From assembly GCA_016929415.1 (NCBI GenBank), contig JAFGIW010000089.1:1-64000 (forward strand): a stretch of DNA of 64,000 bases. Direction: 5' to 3'. This document shows, piece by piece, positions 5,190 through 58,568 of this stretch. Below the pieces are notes generated by a model, which saw only the letters and a program-made list of their open reading frames with translations, made no database searches and was not told the origin of the DNA. Position 1 is the first letter of the stretch, and the number at the start of each line of letters is the position of its first letter. The DNA comes from Chitinispirillaceae bacterium (GTDB lineage: Bacteria; Fibrobacterota; Chitinivibrionia; Chitinivibrionales; Chitinispirillaceae). The position numbers and the translations under genes were made by a program.

Positions 5190-8100
5190 TATTAGTGCCG
5201 ATACCTCACTTTCCAGTACCTCCCGGACGGCAACGAGCAGCGATCGTATTGTATACGGCTTTTGCAGAAAGCGGTAATTTTTCTCCCGAATGAGGCTTAA
5301 ACATGATTTATCATCAGTGTAACCGCTGCTGAACAGCACATGGAGCTTGCGGCCGGAAGACAGCTCTTCGACCAGCCGGATTCCCGATACGTCCGGGAGT
5401 ACTATATCGCTGAATACCAGGGCAAAATCTCCCTTCTCGCGGGCAAACAGCTCCCTCGCCTTTTCGGCGGTTTCCGCATCGAAAACCGTATAACCGTTCG
5501 TCGTGAGCACTTCAATGGCCAGCTCCCGAACCTCTTCCTGATCTTCCACCACTAGAATGCGTTCTCCCGCCCCACGGTAGTTCTCTATCCGGAATACATC
5601 CGCCGTCTTGTGCGCTATTTTTTTAGAAGAAGACGGAAGGTAGATTTGAAAGGTCGTACCCTGTTCCGGATTGCTTTCCACGCTAATCCAGCCTTTATGT
5701 TGTTTGACGATGCCGTAAACCACCGATAGCCCCAACCCCGTTCCTTTTCCCTTTTCTTTCGTCGTGAAAAACGGCTCGAAAATATGCGCCATAGCCTCCG
5801 CACTAATGCCGGTCCCGGTGTCGGTTATTGACAATAAGACAAATTTACCGGGCCGTGCTTCGCTTTTCCTTCTGCAGTATTTCTCGTCAATATCCACGTT
5901 TTGGGTTCCGATGGTGATCGTTCCGCCCTGCGGCATGGCGTCACGCGCGTTGACCGCAAGGTTCATGATCACCTGCTCGATATTGCCTTCGTCCCCCTCA
6001 ATGGCACATCCGTCCGGATCGAGTTGCATATCTATGGTAATATCCTCGCCGATGAGCCGATACAGCATTTTAAAAAGACTGGTAACAATATCGTTAAGAT
6101 TGAGCGATACGGGTTCCATAGGCTGCTTGCGGCTGAAAAGAAGCAACTGACGTACAACCCCCCCGGCCCTGACCGCCGCATTGCTTGCCTGTTTTAAATC
6201 CCGGTGGACCGGGTCCGATTCTTCAAGTTTCATCATAGCCAGACTGATAAAGCCGCTGATTGCGGTCAAAAGGTTGTTGAAATCGTGAGCTACACCGCCG
6301 GCGAGCGCGCCTATGGCCTCAAGTTTCTGCGCCTGGACAAGCTGGGCATTGAGGTGCTCCTTTTCCTTTTCCATGTTACAACGCCCGGTGATATCGTTGA
6401 ACACGCCGGCCATATAGAACTTGCCTTCAAGGTTGAGAGGAAACGAATTGACGTCCGCGTAAAATACGCCGCCGTCTTTCCTCAATACCGGGAGGTTCGG
6501 GGCAACTTCGATCTCGCCCCGCGCCTGTTTATCAAATGCATCGAAAACGGCTGTGAGATCTTTCTGCGGGTGGATATCGTTGACCGAAAGGTTCCCAAGC
6601 TCATCGGCGGTGTAACCCAGCATCCGGCTGATGGCCTGATTGCCGAACAGTAACTTTCGGGTGGATATGTCCGCTACTAGTATCCCGTCGCGGATATTGT
6701 CAACAATAGCCTTGAAACGCTCCTCGCTTTCCCGCAGCGCATCCTCGGCCAGCTTATTCCCGGTAATGTCGCGGAAGTACCAGACGCAACCGTAATACTT
6801 ATTATCGGCACCGAACATAGGCGCGCTGTAACGGTCGAATGTCCTGCCGTCTTTGAGCCCGATCTCGTCCCTGCTTGTCTCGTGACGGTTTGCATATAAC
6901 TGTTCGACCCGCCCGATGAACTCTTCAGGGTCGGCGAGCTTGTCGAGTACCGACCGCAGGACGCGTTCGTCGGATTTCGATTCCATCACCTCCTGGGGAA
7001 TGGCCCACATGGCGACGAACCGCCGGTTGTATGAAATTATTTTTCCGTTTTCGTCCACGATGAGAATGCCGTCGATGGAAGTCTCCTGCTGCGTCGAAAG
7101 AATAAGGTTCCTGAACCTTAATTTCTCTTCGGCGTGCTTGCGGGATAACGCTATGCCAATTGCCGCACCAAGCCCTTCAAAATAGTGAACAATTTCTGTT
7201 GTAAACCTGTTTTCCCGGTGATCGTTGAGCTGCAATAGTCCGATTATATCGTATCCCGATCGCAGCGGTATCAGCGCTACCGATTCATAGCCCTCACCGT
7301 TGCAACGGTTCCGTGTAGGCGATTGACGGTCTTTTTCCGTGGTGGATGCCAGTAGCTCAGAAGTACCGTTGCTCCAGAAGCTTCCGCTTTTGGTGAAGAA
7401 CGGCAGTTCTGGATCGGTCCGGCCGCATATGATGTTTCCGCACATGCACTCCAGCAGCGGGTTACCTAATCCGTCGCTTATACAATTCCCATTCGCGTCG
7501 TACGCGCAAAGGTAGCGCTCGGCTTTCACGAAATGATCGGGAAAACCCTCGGTTTTGTAGTAAGGATAATCGTTTCCTTCCCGGAGCCTGATTCCAACGG
7601 CCTCAATGCCGGTACTTTTCTTGATAAGTTTCAGTATATCTTCGATTGTTTCCGTGGTATCTTCCACACGGTTGAGCAATTCCAACGTATCCCGCGACAA
7701 TTGCACCCGTGAATCCGCCTGTATTCGCTCGGTGATGTCCATAATAAAGGTCATGTAATAAAGCAGTTTACCATCTTTATTGTACTGTAATACCGTATTA
7801 ACATCTGCCCACAATACGGTACCGCTCTTCGTGATATATCTTTTTGTAAATCTGACGGATTTTTTTTCTCCGGTCTGCAAGCTTTCAATGTTTTTCCGGG
7901 TCAATTCGATATCGTCAGGATGAGATATTTCCTGCCATTTCAATTGCGACAGTTCCGCAGAGGTATACCCGAGCATCCGGCAAAATGCAGTATTTACGTT
8001 AACCGTACCGTCGAAAGAGGTGATTGATTTTCCAATTGCGGAGTTATCGAATACGTTCCTGAATTTTACTTCGCTTTCTCTCAGCTCCTCCACGGCCCGT

Positions 8101-53290: not shown

Positions 53291-54598
53291 CTACACCGAA
53301 GCCTCCCGTCCGGTGTGGGCGATGTTGAATCGTTCGATGCGCTGCGCGAGCAGTCTCGCAAGCAGCAGCGCGTAGTGCGGTTTCTTTTTAATCGCCTCGA
53401 CGAACTCTCTTTTAGAGACTTTGATCAGCCGTCCCGCGCTCTTTGCCAGGACGGTCGCCGTACGACGGTGCTCCAGTAAAAACGACATTTCGCCGAGAAA
53501 GATGTCCTCTTCGGAAAGGGTCGATACCGTATGTTCGCCGACGAGTATCTCGAATCGGCCGCTTACTATGTAAAAAATGAAATCGCTGATATCGCCTTCA
53601 CGAAGTATCACATCGCCCGCTGCAACGATTGTCGGTTCAATGTCCCTGAATATGCCCGGCATGACACAGTGCTCGGGGAGCGTGTGTGCGACTTCGAATT
53701 CAACCAGGTTCCCTTTTTCGTTGAAGGAAAGACTTTTCGTAAACGCCCGCGCCATGAGGATTCCCCGGCCGTGCGACATGAGACAATTGGTCTCGCTGGT
53801 CGGATCGGGCACGGCACGCCAGTCGAACCCGACTCCCTGGTCGGCGATACGGAATTTCGAGGATTCGTCGGTGATGGTATACTCAAAAAGCACGCGACGT
53901 TTCGCAATGACGGGGTCGGTACATCGATTCCGTATCAGCCGCTGGATATCGCCTTCTCTTTCAAGCTCCCGCGTTTTCTCATCATAGGTGATTCCGCAAT
54001 TGCCGTGTTCGATCGCATTGGTCAACAGTTCATGCATGACCATTGCGAAGCGCGTCTTTCCGTCGCGGTCGATTTTGTTGGTGGTATAGAGAAAATTGGC
54101 GAGCAGGTTCGCGTAGCACGATGAGGCGTGCAGGTCGTTTTCGAGCTGTATCGCCGCGCTTATGTTGCTCGGGATATCCATGCCGATAACCCGCTGGAAA
54201 AGGATCTGACGGTTTGATTTGATGATGCCCATGATTTTCGGCACGATTTCTTCGATCTCTTCGCTGCTGACGACATCAATAATGTTCGCTTTTTTCAATT
54301 CATCAAGGCGCTGTTCCTCAACCCGTGAATCACAGAAGGCGATTATCCCGGCGTGCAGCAGCCACGGATCGCCGATGACGGTATCGAGCAGTTTGTACGG
54401 TTTGACTCCGCAGGAAGAAAAATCGATGCACGCGAGATCGGGCATCTCCATATTGAGATAATCAAGCGCCTCATCATACGTGTCCATCGGAACGGTCTGC
54501 ACCGTATCGGAAGGAGACAGCCCTTTTCGCAGTGCGCGTTCGATGGCCGTAACCCGGTTTCGATTATCGGAAATGAGCGGTATGGTAAACACCGTCAT
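53291..54598 (-). CDS. Partner-switch protein: pseudo-receiver, RsbW-like ATPase and cNMP-binding domain
   Basis: A 435-residue cytoplasmic protein. Residues 1-135 resemble a receiver fold (TIPLISDNRNRV, LACIDFSS, IIAFCDSR) but without the acidic pocket. Residues 150-305 are a HATPase_c_2 domain (HELLTNAIEHGN, ADQGVGFDW, SHGRGILMAR) as in anti-sigma kinases RsbW/SpoIIAB. Residues 310-425 are a cyclic-nucleotide-binding domain (REGDISDFIFYIVSG, LGEMSFLLEHRRTATV) with the phosphate-binding Arg. It could phosphorylate the adjacent STAS proteins under cyclic-nucleotide control. Its ATG overlaps the STAS stop (ATGA). The sigma factor or target is not in the window. Confidence 0.88.
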   Translation of the reverse strand: MTVFTIPLISDNRNRVTAIERALRKGLSPSDTVQTVPMDTYDEALDYLNMEMPDLACIDFSSCGVKPYKLLDTVIGDPWLLHAGIIAFCDSRVEEQRLDELKKANIIDVVSSEEIEEIVPKIMGIIKSNRQILFQRVIGMDIPSNISAAIQLENDLHASSCYANLLANFLYTTNKIDRDGKTRFAMVMHELLTNAIEHGNCGITYDEKTRELEREGDIQRLIRNRCTDPVIAKRRVLFEYTITDESSKFRIADQGVGFDWRAVPDPTSETNCLMSHGRGILMARAFTKSLSFNEKGNLVEFEVAHTLPEHCVMPGIFRDIEPTIVAAGDVILREGDISDFIFYIVSGRFEILVGEHTVSTLSEEDIFLGEMSFLLEHRRTATVLAKSAGRLIKVSKREFVEAIKKKPHYALLLARLLAQRIERFNIAHTGREASV

Positions 54599-54960
54599 GC
54601 TCCGGACGCGGGGGCTGCCGGAGCGATCCTGTCGAGCGAATCAACAATGGAAAACACCTGCTTCAGGTCGGAAACGTCGATCAGCTTGTCGATGTATGAG
54701 TTACCGTTTCCCTTTTTGTTCACGATATATACCGTAGTATGCCGTCCACGGGCGCTGTTACAGTAGTAAATAATCTGCCCTAATGCATAGCTGTCGATAT
54801 AGGCGATATCGGTAAGATCGATCGCTTTCAGCGGTGCGTCGCCGCCCATCAACTGTTCGATATGTTTACGAAGCGCAACATTGTCTCTCGCAACCACACG
54901 GCCCGTTAACGTGAGAACCGCCGCCGAACCGCCGTTCATGATCTGAATCGATATTGCCAT
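54595..54960 (-). CDS. STAS-domain anti-sigma antagonist
   Basis: A 121-residue STAS protein (SpoIIAA/RsbV fold): AAVLTLTGRVVARDN, AIDLTDIAYIDSYALG with the phosphorylatable Ser in the IDS turn, and an Ala/Pro-rich tail. GGGAGATGGT precedes the ATG. Its stop overlaps the start of the RsbW-like gene, so the two are translated in step. Expected to be phosphorylated by, and to bind, that partner. Confidence 0.93.
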   Translation of the reverse strand: MAISIQIMNGGSAAVLTLTGRVVARDNVALRKHIEQLMGGDAPLKAIDLTDIAYIDSYALGQIIYYCNSARGRHTTVYIVNKKGNGNSYIDKLIDVSDLKQVFSIVDSLDRIAPAAPASGA

Positions 54961-54973
54961 ACCATCTCCCGTT

Positions 54974-55312
54974 TCACCCCTGGCGCGTCGGATTGACGAT
55001 CCGTATCATCTCGTTAAGCCGTGTCGAGTCCAGAAGCCGTGTCATATAAAATGATGGATCATTGTTCGAGTTGATGAGAAACAGTTCGCGGCCCTGACGC
55101 TGCAGGGTTAAAAAGTGAGATACCAGGATCCCCAACGCATGGCTTTCCATGAAATCGATCTGAGAAATATCAATCGCGATACGGTCTGCCCCCTGCTGGA
55201 CCAGGTCGCGGATTGCGCGGGAAAACCGATAGACTTCCATTTCGCTTACCGAACCGACGACGCGCAGTATCGACGTCGTTTCCGATTGATATACCGATAA
55301 TCCCAATTCCAT
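54974..55312 (-). CDS. Second STAS-domain anti-sigma antagonist
   Basis: A 112-residue STAS protein. The phosphosite turn is FMESHALGI, with Glu for the usual Asp before Ser. Only 13 bp separate it from the next STAS gene. GGAGGTGG precedes the ATG, and a 7-bp hairpin sits just above it. Two antagonists feeding one ATPase would let two signals meet. Confidence 0.92.
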   Translation of the reverse strand: MELGLSVYQSETTSILRVVGSVSEMEVYRFSRAIRDLVQQGADRIAIDISQIDFMESHALGILVSHFLTLQRQGRELFLINSNNDPSFYMTRLLDSTRLNEMIRIVNPTRQG

Positions 55313-55342: not shown

Positions 55343-55454
55343 ATACGGAAACGTAAATGCATTACCGCAAATAATTGATATATAGTCTACTATTGTTCGT
55401 CGGAGAGGTCAATTACTGAAGCGGCTTCCGCCGGCGGAGGATCGTAAATCGCGG

Positions 55455-55508: not shown

Positions 55509-55913
55509 CTACTCGGCGGCGGGAACCAGCTTCCCCACAACCTTCAGATTCTTCAAAACCTTGAGTCCATGCGGGCTTTTCTTCCTGATGGCATCGCCGA
55601 GTTCGGTTCCGGCGATATGCCGGCCTTTATGTTTTCCCTTCCTCCACGCCTTGATGGGAGATACGTCATAGATAACCCCGTCAATGGCGACATACGCCGC
55701 TTTCCCGTCAGCGCCGTTGTATCCGGCAAGTTCTTCGATGGTAAGTGAACGAAGCGGCGCCGCGCCGCCGCTTTCCGCTTTCTTCGTAGCCGACATGCTT
55801 GCTGAGGTAATGCTGTCGGGTGCAGGTGCATCGGGCTGCTTTTCTGCGGCAAAACACAGAACAGCAGCAAACACGATTAACGCGGTTTTAACAAAAAATA
55901 CGGTTTTACTCAT
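55509..55913 (-). CDS. Exported cytochrome b5-like heme-binding domain protein
   Basis: A 134-residue protein with a signal peptide (VFFVKTALIVFAAVLCFA), an Ala/Ser/Pro-rich linker (25-55) and a cytochrome b5-like domain (60-130; LTIEELAGYNGADGKAAYVAIDG, VIYDVSPIKAWRKGKHKGRHIAG). The short MAPR/steroid-binding kind, rather than the HPGG type. GAAGAG precedes the ATG at 55913; an ATG at 55928 is also in frame. Probably periplasmic, binding heme. Confidence 0.82.
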   Translation of the reverse strand: MSKTVFFVKTALIVFAAVLCFAAEKQPDAPAPDSITSASMSATKKAESGGAAPLRSLTIEELAGYNGADGKAAYVAIDGVIYDVSPIKAWRKGKHKGRHIAGTELGDAIRKKSPHGLKVLKNLKVVGKLVPAAE

Positions 55914-55994
55914 CACTATACTCTTCATTGCTTATTTTTTTATCACAAGACGATTTGTTATAAAAGGCTTCACTTGGCCATTGCAGGTTGCCCT

Positions 55995-56435
55995 TCACGC
56001 CATATACTTTCCGGTAATATACTCCACAAGCCGTTCATTTTCGGTCGAGATGGCGTCGATAAGCGTGCGGTTGATGTCGCGCATGGAAATCATGGCTTTG
56101 ACCTTACCATCACTTTTCAACGGGATGTGCCTGATATGGTTCTTTCGAAAAGTTTTCATCACTTCTACGAGGTCATCCTCCATATCGGCATAAACGATGT
56201 TGGTGGTCATGACTTCACTCACTTTCATGCTGCATATATAATCGTTCTTGCAATGGGAACAAACGGTAAGAATATCCCGTTCGGAAATGATACCGAAGAC
56301 TGTTTCTCCTTCGGCCACCAATAACGCACCAATTTTAAAATCGGTTAATTTTGTAATAGCAGCATGTATGGTCGTATCTCTGTCGATTGTATGCATTACC
56401 GAATTTTCGACACCGATGAGTTCCTTTGCTTTCAT
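55995..56435 (-). CDS. CBS-pair protein
   Basis: A 146-residue protein of two CBS motifs (about 8-65 and 75-135; TTIHAAITKLTDFKIGALLV, GIISERDILT, VMTTNIVYADMEDDL, HIRHIPLK). AAAGGAGG precedes the ATG at 56435. Such stand-alone pairs bind adenine nucleotides and regulate enzymes. CSHCKNDYIC between the motifs adds three cysteines. It lies just after the ferritin-like gene in the hydrogenase-related cluster. Confidence 0.92.
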   Translation of the reverse strand: MKAKELIGVENSVMHTIDRDTTIHAAITKLTDFKIGALLVAEGETVFGIISERDILTVCSHCKNDYICSMKVSEVMTTNIVYADMEDDLVEVMKTFRKNHIRHIPLKSDGKVKAMISMRDINRTLIDAISTENERLVEYITGKYMA

Positions 56436-56473
56436 AGGCAACCTCCTTTTACATCGATTTTTTATGAAACATG

Positions 56474-56965
56474 TCAAGCTCCCGTTACTTCCTTTAATTT
56501 ATTGCTGAGCATCGTAACGTGCTGCATCTCTTCTCTGATGATCGATTCCACCTTATCCTTTCCGGCGTTTCGCGGAACCACTTCCTTCATACCAAGATAA
56601 AAAACAATGGAATCTTTTTCGAGTCCGATCGCAATACGGAGAATATCCGGCAGGCTCTCGGAACCGTTCAGCATGGCCGATGGATCGTTATGGGTATCGA
56701 ATACATACCCTCCGGCCATAGTATTCAGATATGCCGACGCTTCATTGTCGGGATCTGCAGCGAAAAGTTCGGATTCATGCGAGGTTACCAGCAGATGCAT
56801 ACCTTGAAACCGTCTGAGATGGCTCTCTTCCATTTCAGCAAGTTCCAGAAGGAATTGCTTCGCTTCCGGAATGATTTCGGCGCAGTTACGGTAAAACGCC
56901 GCGCCGTTTCGTTCAATCTGCTCGGCCAGTGTAAAGACTTCATCGGCATTAAAAGTAATGGGCAT
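56474..56965 (-). CDS. Ferritin-like (rubrerythrin-type) diiron protein
   Basis: A 163-residue helical protein with the four-helix diiron pattern: LAEQIERNGAAFYRN, LAEMEESHLRRF (ExxH), IGLEKDSIVFYLGM and REEMQHVTML (ExxH). No rubredoxin C-terminus. Likely an iron oxidase or peroxide scavenger. It sits between hypA and the CBS gene; in an anaerobe it would protect oxygen-sensitive enzymes. Confidence 0.88.
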   Translation of the reverse strand: MPITFNADEVFTLAEQIERNGAAFYRNCAEIIPEAKQFLLELAEMEESHLRRFQGMHLLVTSHESELFAADPDNEASAYLNTMAGGYVFDTHNDPSAMLNGSESLPDILRIAIGLEKDSIVFYLGMKEVVPRNAGKDKVESIIREEMQHVTMLSNKLKEVTGA

Positions 56966-56994
56966 GGTATGCGCTCCTTTTCTTTTTGGTAGTG

Positions 56995-57345
56995 TTATCC
57001 CTGCAGTTCTATGTGGTCGATATACAGTTCCCGTCCTCCGGTAATTTCCCCTTCATTCGCACCGCACTGTTGACATCGGAAACAACGGCCCGTTACCATG
57101 CTGGTTGATCCGCATTGTCGGCATTTACCGTTTGCCGGTGGGCGCCTGACAGCCAATTCCGATCCTTCGGCGATAGTACCTTTTGTCAGATGCGCATAGG
57201 TTAAAGTCAGATACTCGGAAACAATCGGACGTAATGCGCCGATAACAACCGTGGTTTTTATGACTTTGCACTTTTCTCGTCCCCGGGCGGTTAATTGTTT
57301 ATTCACGGTATCGACAATAGACTGGCAGACGTTGAATTCATGCAT
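56995..57345 (-). CDS. hypA: Hydrogenase nickel-incorporation protein HypA
   Basis: A 116-residue protein starting MHEFNVCQSIV at 57345 (the MHE start binds nickel in the family). The zinc domain has CRQCG and CFRCQQCG. It delivers nickel to the hydrogenase large subunit together with HypB. Its start overlaps the protease gene by 8 bp, so both serve the same enzyme. No hypB is in the window. Confidence 0.94.
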   Translation of the reverse strand: MHEFNVCQSIVDTVNKQLTARGREKCKVIKTTVVIGALRPIVSEYLTLTYAHLTKGTIAEGSELAVRRPPANGKCRQCGSTSMVTGRCFRCQQCGANEGEITGGRELYIDHIELQG

Positions 57346-57865
57346 GCTGGAATACCTGTAAAAAAACGTATGCAAGTGCATCGATCGCGTGTTGCACCTT
57401 TCGGCTTATCAAAGCGTTGAATTTCAATGCCTGTGACTGAATGCCAATGACAGTGAGTCGCACGCCGGGTATTCGACGACGCAGATAGGCGGTAATCAGT
57501 TCCATCGATCCTGTATGGGTAGAACAGATGCCGTCGCATACGGCTTCGGGACTTAACATCCTTATTTCACCGGGCAGTCCATAGAAATTGGCGGCATCGA
57601 TAAATAAAATCGTTTGCGGTTGAAGGGCTGCCATTTTTTCGAGATAATTTTCCGGTACCGATCCGGCATTAATACATTCTGCGGAGATTCTATCGACAAT
57701 GCTATCGATCAGAGCGGGTCCGGCCCCATCATCGCCACGCATGCTGTTACCGATACCCACAAGTATTGTTTTACCGGAGATGATTTCTGTGATTTCGGTA
57801 TACAGTGAGGTGACACTGTTTTTGTCAACAGTTACCGGCGCTGGAAAAAGGGCTGTCACTTCCAT
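57338..57865 (-). CDS. Hydrogenase maturation protease (HycI/HyaD family)
   Basis: A 175-residue endopeptidase: GIGNSMRGDDGAGP at the start, SVPENY, LFIDAANFYGLPGEIRML and STHTGSMEL hold the nickel-sensing acidic and His residues of the family. SVPENY and PGEIR are like HycI, the protease for group 4 hydrogenase large subunits. It cuts the C-terminal tail after nickel insertion. The 30-residue stretch before ILVGIGN is longer than usual. Confidence 0.92.
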   Translation of the reverse strand: MEVTALFPAPVTVDKNSVTSLYTEITEIISGKTILVGIGNSMRGDDGAGPALIDSIVDRISAECINAGSVPENYLEKMAALQPQTILFIDAANFYGLPGEIRMLSPEAVCDGICSTHTGSMELITAYLRRRIPGVRLTVIGIQSQALKFNALISRKVQHAIDALAYVFLQVFQHA

Positions 57866-57937
57866 TGTTCACCACCTCTGCAAAGCAATTGTGCATGATG
57901 AAATTGTGCACTTCCGATATACTTGATATGATGATTG

Positions 57938-58549
57938 CTATACGGTCATAGCGGTTTTCCGGCGGCAATGAGGACATTGAATATTTATCCGCCGGGCACG
58001 AATCGGATATTCATTTCCCGATTCGAAACCTTTATCGACCACCTGAAGGTTTGTATGCGATACAAGCATAAGGGTAGGATTACAGAATGCAAGGGCGCCG
58101 AGGCGTTTTACCAGCCACAGTATCTGGTCCACCGGCGCAAGAACTTTACCGCATACTTCGCAGAGAAGAAGCTTCTTTTCGACACGTTCTTCAAAATCTT
58201 TCCTTGAAAACCCGGCATAATCCCATTCGGTGGTGAGTTTGATTCCCTTCTCGGAAGTACAGTACCGTTCGCATTGCCCGCATTGAATGCATGTATCCAG
58301 ATGCTGGACCAGTCGACGAACCGGTGTATCAAGCTTTGTATCATCCACCACTTCAATTGCATTGGAAGGACACACCTCGGCACAGGCACCGCAGCCGATA
58401 CACTCTTTTTCATCGTATCGCGGTCTTCCACGATACCGTTCTATCGGTTGATAGCCGCCCTTTGGAAACGGGCTGGTATAAGGACGCCCGAAAAGTGATG
58501 AAAGCGCAACTTTAAGTATTCTGAACTGAAAAAGACAAGGAAGCTTCAT
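57938..58549 (-). CDS. Ferredoxin-type hydrogenase subunit (two 4Fe-4S)
   Basis: A 203-residue protein from the ATG at 58549 (AGGGA before). Two clusters: CIGCGACAEVCP and CIQCGQCERYC, preceded by RGRPRYDEKE. The C-terminal part adds CEVCGK, as in HycF/HyfH/MbhN-like electron-input subunits of group 4 hydrogenases and complex I NuoI relatives. It would carry electrons from ferredoxin to the hydrogenase. Located between mrpG and the protease. Confidence 0.88.
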   Translation of the reverse strand: MKLPCLFQFRILKVALSSLFGRPYTSPFPKGGYQPIERYRGRPRYDEKECIGCGACAEVCPSNAIEVVDDTKLDTPVRRLVQHLDTCIQCGQCERYCTSEKGIKLTTEWDYAGFSRKDFEERVEKKLLLCEVCGKVLAPVDQILWLVKRLGALAFCNPTLMLVSHTNLQVVDKGFESGNEYPIRARRINIQCPHCRRKTAMTV

Positions 58550-58568
58550 TACCAATCCCTATGATATT

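Follow-up and report, generated by a model that had tools for sequence, protein, structure and literature searches.

The window, comprising bases 1–64,000 of the 67-kb contig C148 in a 5.1-Mb draft genome with Chitinispirillaceae and Fibrobacter MAGs (phylum Fibrobacterota) as its closest named relatives, contains three ORFs on the minus strand between 55312 and 53291, where the first-pass annotation had located a three-gene module. In gene order, these ORFs encode STAS_B (112 aa; 54974..55312, minus strand), STAS_A (121 aa; 54595..54960, minus strand), and an ATPase of 435 aa (53291..54598, minus strand) comprising a pseudo-receiver, an HATPase_c_2 domain, and a cyclic-nucleotide-binding domain. 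The STAS genes were identified by ORF and Pfam analyses, and the assignment of the ATPase was additionally based on its orthologues, a predicted model, and a fold match to LvrC. A gap of 13 bases separates STAS_B from STAS_A, and the previously noted overlap of the ATPase gene with one STAS gene corresponds to four bases (ATGA) shared with STAS_A.

A sigma-70-like promoter, TTGACC-17-TAGACT, was readable upstream of the module (55384..55412, minus strand). Chance alone should yield promoter sites this good in the region, and the evidence for this one lies in its conservation: TTGACC, a spacer of 17 bases, and then TAGACT, TAGAAT, TACACT, or TAAACT were found upstream of all four orthologous operons (the window, L040, L039, and L041). 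The conserved TTGACC-17-TA element fits a housekeeping promoter. Further upstream on the same strand (55509–58555) are genes for cytochrome b5-like, CBS-pair, rubrerythrin-like, and HypA- and HyaD-type hydrogenase maturation proteins, of which the rubrerythrin-like, HypA-, and HyaD-type names derive from sequence reading. In L039, too, a CBS-pair gene lies ahead of the STAS pair.

Domain architecture of the ATPase

The AlphaFold model of the ATPase (mean pLDDT 82; pTM 0.84) comprised alternating strands and helices at residues 2–128, a Bergerat domain at residues 146–304, and a cyclic-nucleotide domain at residues 316–425. The Bergerat domain (53687..54163, minus strand) was supported by a Pfam HATPase_c_2 match above the curated cut-off (E = 5e-11; residues 174–300) and by phmmer alignment to the PDB entry 9QIH. 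Alignment of 15 orthologues with identities down to 31% showed that E190 and N194 of the N-box ELLTNAIEHGN (53999..54031, minus strand), D253, G255, and G257 of the G1 box DQGVGF (53825..53842, minus strand), and the G2 glycines G277 and G279 downstream of the G1 box were invariant, as were E370 and R379 of the cyclic-nucleotide domain. The ATPase was 90, 79, and 75% identical to its counterparts in three relatives and 31–49% identical to the others, with the catalytic motifs kept, indicating that this architecture is not a product of chance. A Bergerat fold carrying the N-box Glu and Asn together with the G1 and G2 glycines is that of RsbW and SpoIIAB, and the intact ATP-site residues throughout the orthologues agree with the earlier description of an anti-sigma-type ATPase.

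The top fold match of the model in the PDB was 9QIH (Foldseek; E = 5e-16; 314 columns), which covered both the receiver and the Bergerat domains; at the sequence level, too, the ATPase part matched this PDB entry alone (residues 156–302). The entry, named SenB in the deposition, was described in print as LvrC (LIC11110) of Leptospira, a protein consisting of a canonical Rec domain, which is phosphorylated by LvrB, and a Bergerat domain, and proposed to be a putative Rec-regulated anti-sigma factor (PMC13269768). The ATPase in the window resembles LvrC in that a Rec fold precedes the same subtype of Bergerat domain, including an insert of ~40 residues between the N-box and the G1 box. In contrast, the receiver of LvrC is canonical and LvrC has no cyclic-nucleotide domain, whereas the receiver in the window is degenerate, a cyclic-nucleotide domain is appended, and the operon carries two STAS genes. 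The domain order receiver–ATPase–cyclic nucleotide domain given by the first-pass annotation was thus correct, as judged from Pfam matches above cut-offs, the (βα)5 fold in the model, and the fold match to LvrC; what the annotation had missed was the kinship to this Rec–Bergerat protein. Judged by its anatomy, the ATPase would work like an RsbW- or LvrC-type protein. The ATPase tree, with its long branches, does not fix the deep order and accordingly gives no direction of transfer between phyla.

No Pfam model matched the N-terminus of the ATPase, and the pseudo-receiver (residues 1–128; 54215..54598, minus strand) was recognized by DSSP of the model, by alignment, and by Foldseek comparison with LvrC Rec. 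The predicted (βα)5 fold at residues 2–128 lacks the acidic pair after β1 and the Lys at the β5 position, and the β3 Asp is replaced by Asn or another residue in several orthologues. The receiver fold is kept and the residues of a phosphorylatable canonical receiver are not, in line with its initial designation as a pseudo-receiver, and we rejected an active receiver on these three grounds. The ATPase is consequently a relative of LvrC rather than an LvrC-type response regulator. One could still suppose that the receiver takes two-component input, as that of LvrC does, and that the cyclic-nucleotide domain is secondary, given that the N-terminal fold has been retained and matches LvrC Rec. The missing acidic pair and Lys and the variable β3 Asp speak against this, as do the canonical receivers of L048 and L049, two proteobacterial relatives without the cyclic-nucleotide domain, and we consider such an input highly improbable.

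The cyclic-nucleotide pocket and class III cyclases

The cyclic-nucleotide-binding domain (residues 316–425; 53324..53653, minus strand) was assigned by Pfam, PDB sequence matches, and Foldseek. Its match to Pfam cNMP_binding (PF00027; E = 9e-15; residues 325–405) scored 54.8 bits (cut-off, 27.5), and its PDB sequence matches were PKG, SthK, PKA, HCN, and CRP, with PKGs being the best. The phosphate-binding cassette GEMSFLLEHRRTATV (53450..53494, minus strand) contains Glu370 and Arg379 at the PKA/PKG spacing. Both residues were invariant in the 15 orthologues, and the cassette was altered in two genomes, G005 and G014; over every readable copy, the contact Glu was kept and the Arg was lost in one. 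The domain thus has the fold, the score, and the Glu and Arg contacts of the PF00027 family. It shares the fold and the cassette with the domains of PKG, SthK, and CRP and differs from them in its output, which is a Bergerat kinase instead of a protein kinase domain, a channel, or a DNA-binding domain.

The window genome encodes two class III cyclases, and a ligand would accordingly be available. Class III cyclases were present in 14 of the 17 genomes encoding the full three-domain ATPase and absent from G005, G014, and G030 (completeness 99, 82, and 68%, respectively). In G005 and G014, none was found even at a loose threshold; G030 contained a cyclase fragment of 57 residues at E = 0.1 and had kept its pocket. 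The pocket was also kept in all 14 cyclase-bearing genomes and was altered only in G014 (R379G, T380N, and A381T, with loss of Arg379) and G005 (R378E and T380N). This association between pocket change and cyclase absence (Fisher 0.022) is post hoc, relies on n = 2, and ignores kinship, and the restriction of altered pockets to these two cyclase-less genomes hints that the ligand may be the product of a class III cyclase. The motif RTATV in the window resembles that of PKG without deciding between ligands. We dropped the attempt to call cAMP or cGMP from the pocket, as the residue after Arg379 is Thr, Ser, or Asn in the orthologues.

These data also bear on whether the domain binds a nucleotide at all. 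It could be a structural or dimerization module, with dephosphorylation of the STAS proteins by SpoIIE phosphatases being the actual input. That G005 and G014 keep the domain despite an altered pocket is in favor of this possibility, since it indicates that the domain can persist without the standard contacts. It is opposed by the invariance of Glu370 and Arg379 at the same spacing over 15 divergent orthologues and by the confinement of pocket changes to genomes in which no class III cyclase was found, and we regard a domain without nucleotide as unlikely. The link from cyclic nucleotide level to a partner switch, as originally suggested, is reasonable in view of the invariant contact residues and the pattern of pockets and cyclases.

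The STAS pair and its linkage to the ATPase

Pfam STAS (PF01740) matched both small proteins above the curated cut-offs (E = 1.9e-5 and 3.5e-11), and NCBIfam TIGR00377 matched them below its cut-off (E = 3e-10 and 2e-12). Sequence comparison pointed to Ser57 of STAS_A (54790..54792, minus strand) as the predicted phospho-acceptor. Ser57 is conserved in both proteins, so that each has the Ser expected of a STAS partner, and the residues before it differ, with the motif being IDS (Asp56-Ser57) in STAS_A and MES (Glu56-Ser57; 55142..55147, minus strand) in STAS_B. The Glu in place of Asp, already noted at first reading, was found in all four STAS_B orthologues, whereas the related STAS proteins, including those of tandem pairs elsewhere, almost all have Asp-Ser. 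It is accordingly a fixed trait of the clade rather than an anomaly of one gene. With Ser57 kept, a working STAS_B whose kinetics or specificity has changed is more likely than an inactive one. A dead STAS_B was not supported, given the retained Ser57 and the Glu fixed in the four orthologues.

The STAS pair adjoins the ATPase in four operons only, those of the window, L040, L039, and L041; in L041, from a Fibrobacter MAG, a frameshift that may be an assembly error interrupts STAS_B (7201-7700). A profile of seven STAS sequences defined a subfamily marked by a small insert ahead of the final helix, with members in the genomes sampled from families f1, f2, f3, f5, and f6. In the tree of these proteins, STAS_B grouped with the first member (support 98/91) and STAS_A with the second member (support 94/89) of a tandem pair in G027, G032, and G036, genomes of another family in which the pair has the same order and lies away from the ATPase. 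The STAS pair therefore appears to predate its linkage to the ATPase in the clade of the window, unless the other clade once had this linkage and lost it. Single STAS genes with the inserted loop occur at L110, L113, L116, L120, and L123 and in the window genome (C96:18014-18322). Those of family f1 often lie between MazG/YrdC-like genes and an aminotransferase gene, as named by sequence reading.

The full three-domain ATPase was found in 17 of the 101 searched genomes, and all 17 belong to a set of 40 genomes of the same order. It was also present in Spirochaetota MAGs and in one Riflebacteria MAG; some of these sequences are interrupted by a contig end or a stretch of N, and in L046 the break falls inside the cyclic-nucleotide domain. 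Relatives without the cyclic-nucleotide domain were found in G009, G015, and family f11. Beyond the close relatives of the window, the surroundings of the ATPase gene yielded no STAS gene. A survey for the trio in other genomes, as recommended by the first-pass annotation, thus had a divided outcome: the three-domain ATPase is widespread, and the adjacent STAS pair is restricted to close relatives. A universal trio was rejected because the distant orthologues have no STAS gene nearby. The inserted-loop subfamily was not detected at E = 1e-8 or 1e-5 in the ATPase-bearing genomes G037 and G039 or in five of the six non-Fibrobacterota genomes, and pairing with it is hence not obligate; an obligate need for an inserted-loop STAS was discarded on the basis of G037, G039, and the spirochaete genomes. 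Other STAS proteins were encoded in nearly all genomes with an orphan ATPase.

This distribution raises the question of whether STAS_A and STAS_B are partners of the ATPase or adjacent to it incidentally in this one clade. The ATPase is an orphan in most genomes, and 10 of the 17 ATPase-bearing genomes are without the pair, as expected for incidental adjacency. However, the overlap of STAS_A with the ATPase gene is of the kind associated with translational coupling, and gene order and promoter are common to four genomes. Moreover, among the 28 genomes searched, the ATPase was present in all seven with the pair and in 10 of the 21 without it; this co-occurrence (Fisher 0.023), being uncorrected and drawn from related genomes, is only a hint. 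Taken with the shared operon structure, it leads us to view incidental adjacency as quite improbable. More than one STAS per kinase has a parallel in mycobacteria, where a single anti-sigma-type kinase, RsbW, has more than one STAS antagonist, RsfA and RsfB (PMC7693655, PMC8256260). The module in the window differs from this system in its lack of a linked sigma factor, its predicted cyclic-nucleotide input, and the Glu before Ser in one STAS.

Several neighborhoods of orphan ATPase genes contain phosphate-related genes. In family f7, the gene immediately before the ATPase is DUF47/PhoU-like (L063:2851-3504, a weak match), or else the ATPase is preceded by PhoU-like and phosphate-transporter genes (L064:10678-12284), and in family f5 it follows genes for Ppx, polyphosphate kinase, CHAD, and histidine-phosphatase proteins (L054:5513-11355; in part L052:3173-3682). 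A tie of orphan ATPase loci to phosphate or polyphosphate is possible. ATPase-bearing Spirochaetales genomes have very few STAS genes (one to three), and their main STAS is a conserved protein of 183 aa with a C-terminal zinc-ribbon-like CxxC pair (L159:1516-2067, L161:3942-4493, and L162:1859-2410).

Target, reset, and proposed mechanism

RsbW and SpoIIAB are single-domain proteins and are usually encoded beside the gene for their sigma factor. The module in the window shares with them and their partners RsbV and SpoIIAA an HATPase_c_2 domain with the N-box Glu and Asn, Ser-bearing STAS proteins, and a STAS–ATPase operon; it differs in its additional input domains, its two STAS genes, and the absence of a linked sigma factor or phosphatase. 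Consistent with the earlier remark that neither was adjacent, contig C148 gave no match to Sigma70_r2 or the SpoIIE phosphatase along its 67 kb, and no sigma gene was seen next to the ATPase orthologues that were read. Elsewhere, the window genome encodes 18 Sigma70_r2 proteins and seven SpoIIE phosphatases, the latter all located off contig C148. Among five mid-sized sigma proteins scanned, one was of the FliA/WhiG type above the cut-off and four scored best against RpoD/RpoS-type models; none passed the cut-off of a SigB-, SigF-, or SigG-type model. The FliA/WhiG-type protein, whose locus has a MinD-like gene, was the only group-3 sigma factor found.

The ATPase might, alternatively, act solely as a STAS kinase, with no sigma factor involved and the STAS proteins as the output, docking on a transporter or on an enzyme (for instance, a diguanylate cyclase). 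HsbA–HsbD and SiaC-type systems are reportedly of this kind, with a paper on the Pseudomonas diguanylate cyclase HsbD said to provide the precedent. The absence of a sigma gene from the contig and from the surroundings of the orthologues read is in accordance with such a switch, as is the failure of all five scanned sigma factors to pass as SigB-, SigF-, or SigG-type. On the other hand, the genome does encode one FliA/WhiG sigma factor, missing linkage is compatible with a distant sigma factor, and LvrC, the closest relative, has been read as an anti-sigma factor (PMC13269768). We therefore consider a sigma-free switch somewhat unlikely and a sigma factor to be the likeliest class of target, for which the FliA/WhiG sigma factor is a candidate by elimination only.

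Our best reading of the module, held with moderate confidence, is that a cyclic nucleotide directly gates the kinase of a partner switch. We infer ligand binding, phosphorylation, the direction of the switch, and the identities of ligand and target. In the proposed mechanism, an LvrC-like ATPase would have lost the input by receiver phosphorylation, leaving the receiver as a scaffold or dimerization part, and would now receive its input through the C-terminal cyclic-nucleotide domain. On binding there, the product of a class III cyclase (probably cAMP) would switch the dimeric ATPase between two states. In one state, it would phosphorylate STAS_A and STAS_B on Ser57 and hold the target; in the other, it would be held by the unphosphorylated STAS proteins, and the target would be freed. 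Unlinked SpoIIE-type phosphatases would reset the STAS proteins.

In well-studied partner switches, the signal enters through a phosphatase to the STAS protein or, as in LvrC, through a receiver to the kinase. We advance tentatively, as plausible but somewhat short of probable, the broader proposal that a cyclase-made messenger binds the kinase itself and sets the switch without phosphatase or receiver input, and that this arrangement arose from an LvrC-like regulator through loss of the phosphosite and gain of the cyclic-nucleotide domain and operates in Fibrobacterota and Spirochaetota as well as in at least one Riflebacteria genome. We found no description of an anti-sigma kinase with a cyclic-nucleotide domain in a literature search that covered subscription journals thinly. 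If the proposal is true, a kinase that reads cyclic nucleotides would join two of the commonest bacterial signaling systems in one protein, and the control of a Bergerat ATPase by a cyclic-nucleotide domain would become testable. The window genome also contains a second partner-switch cluster on contig C6 (4167-5755; L004, L095, and L096), where consecutive genes encode an HATPase protein, a STAS–HATPase fusion, and a STAS protein.
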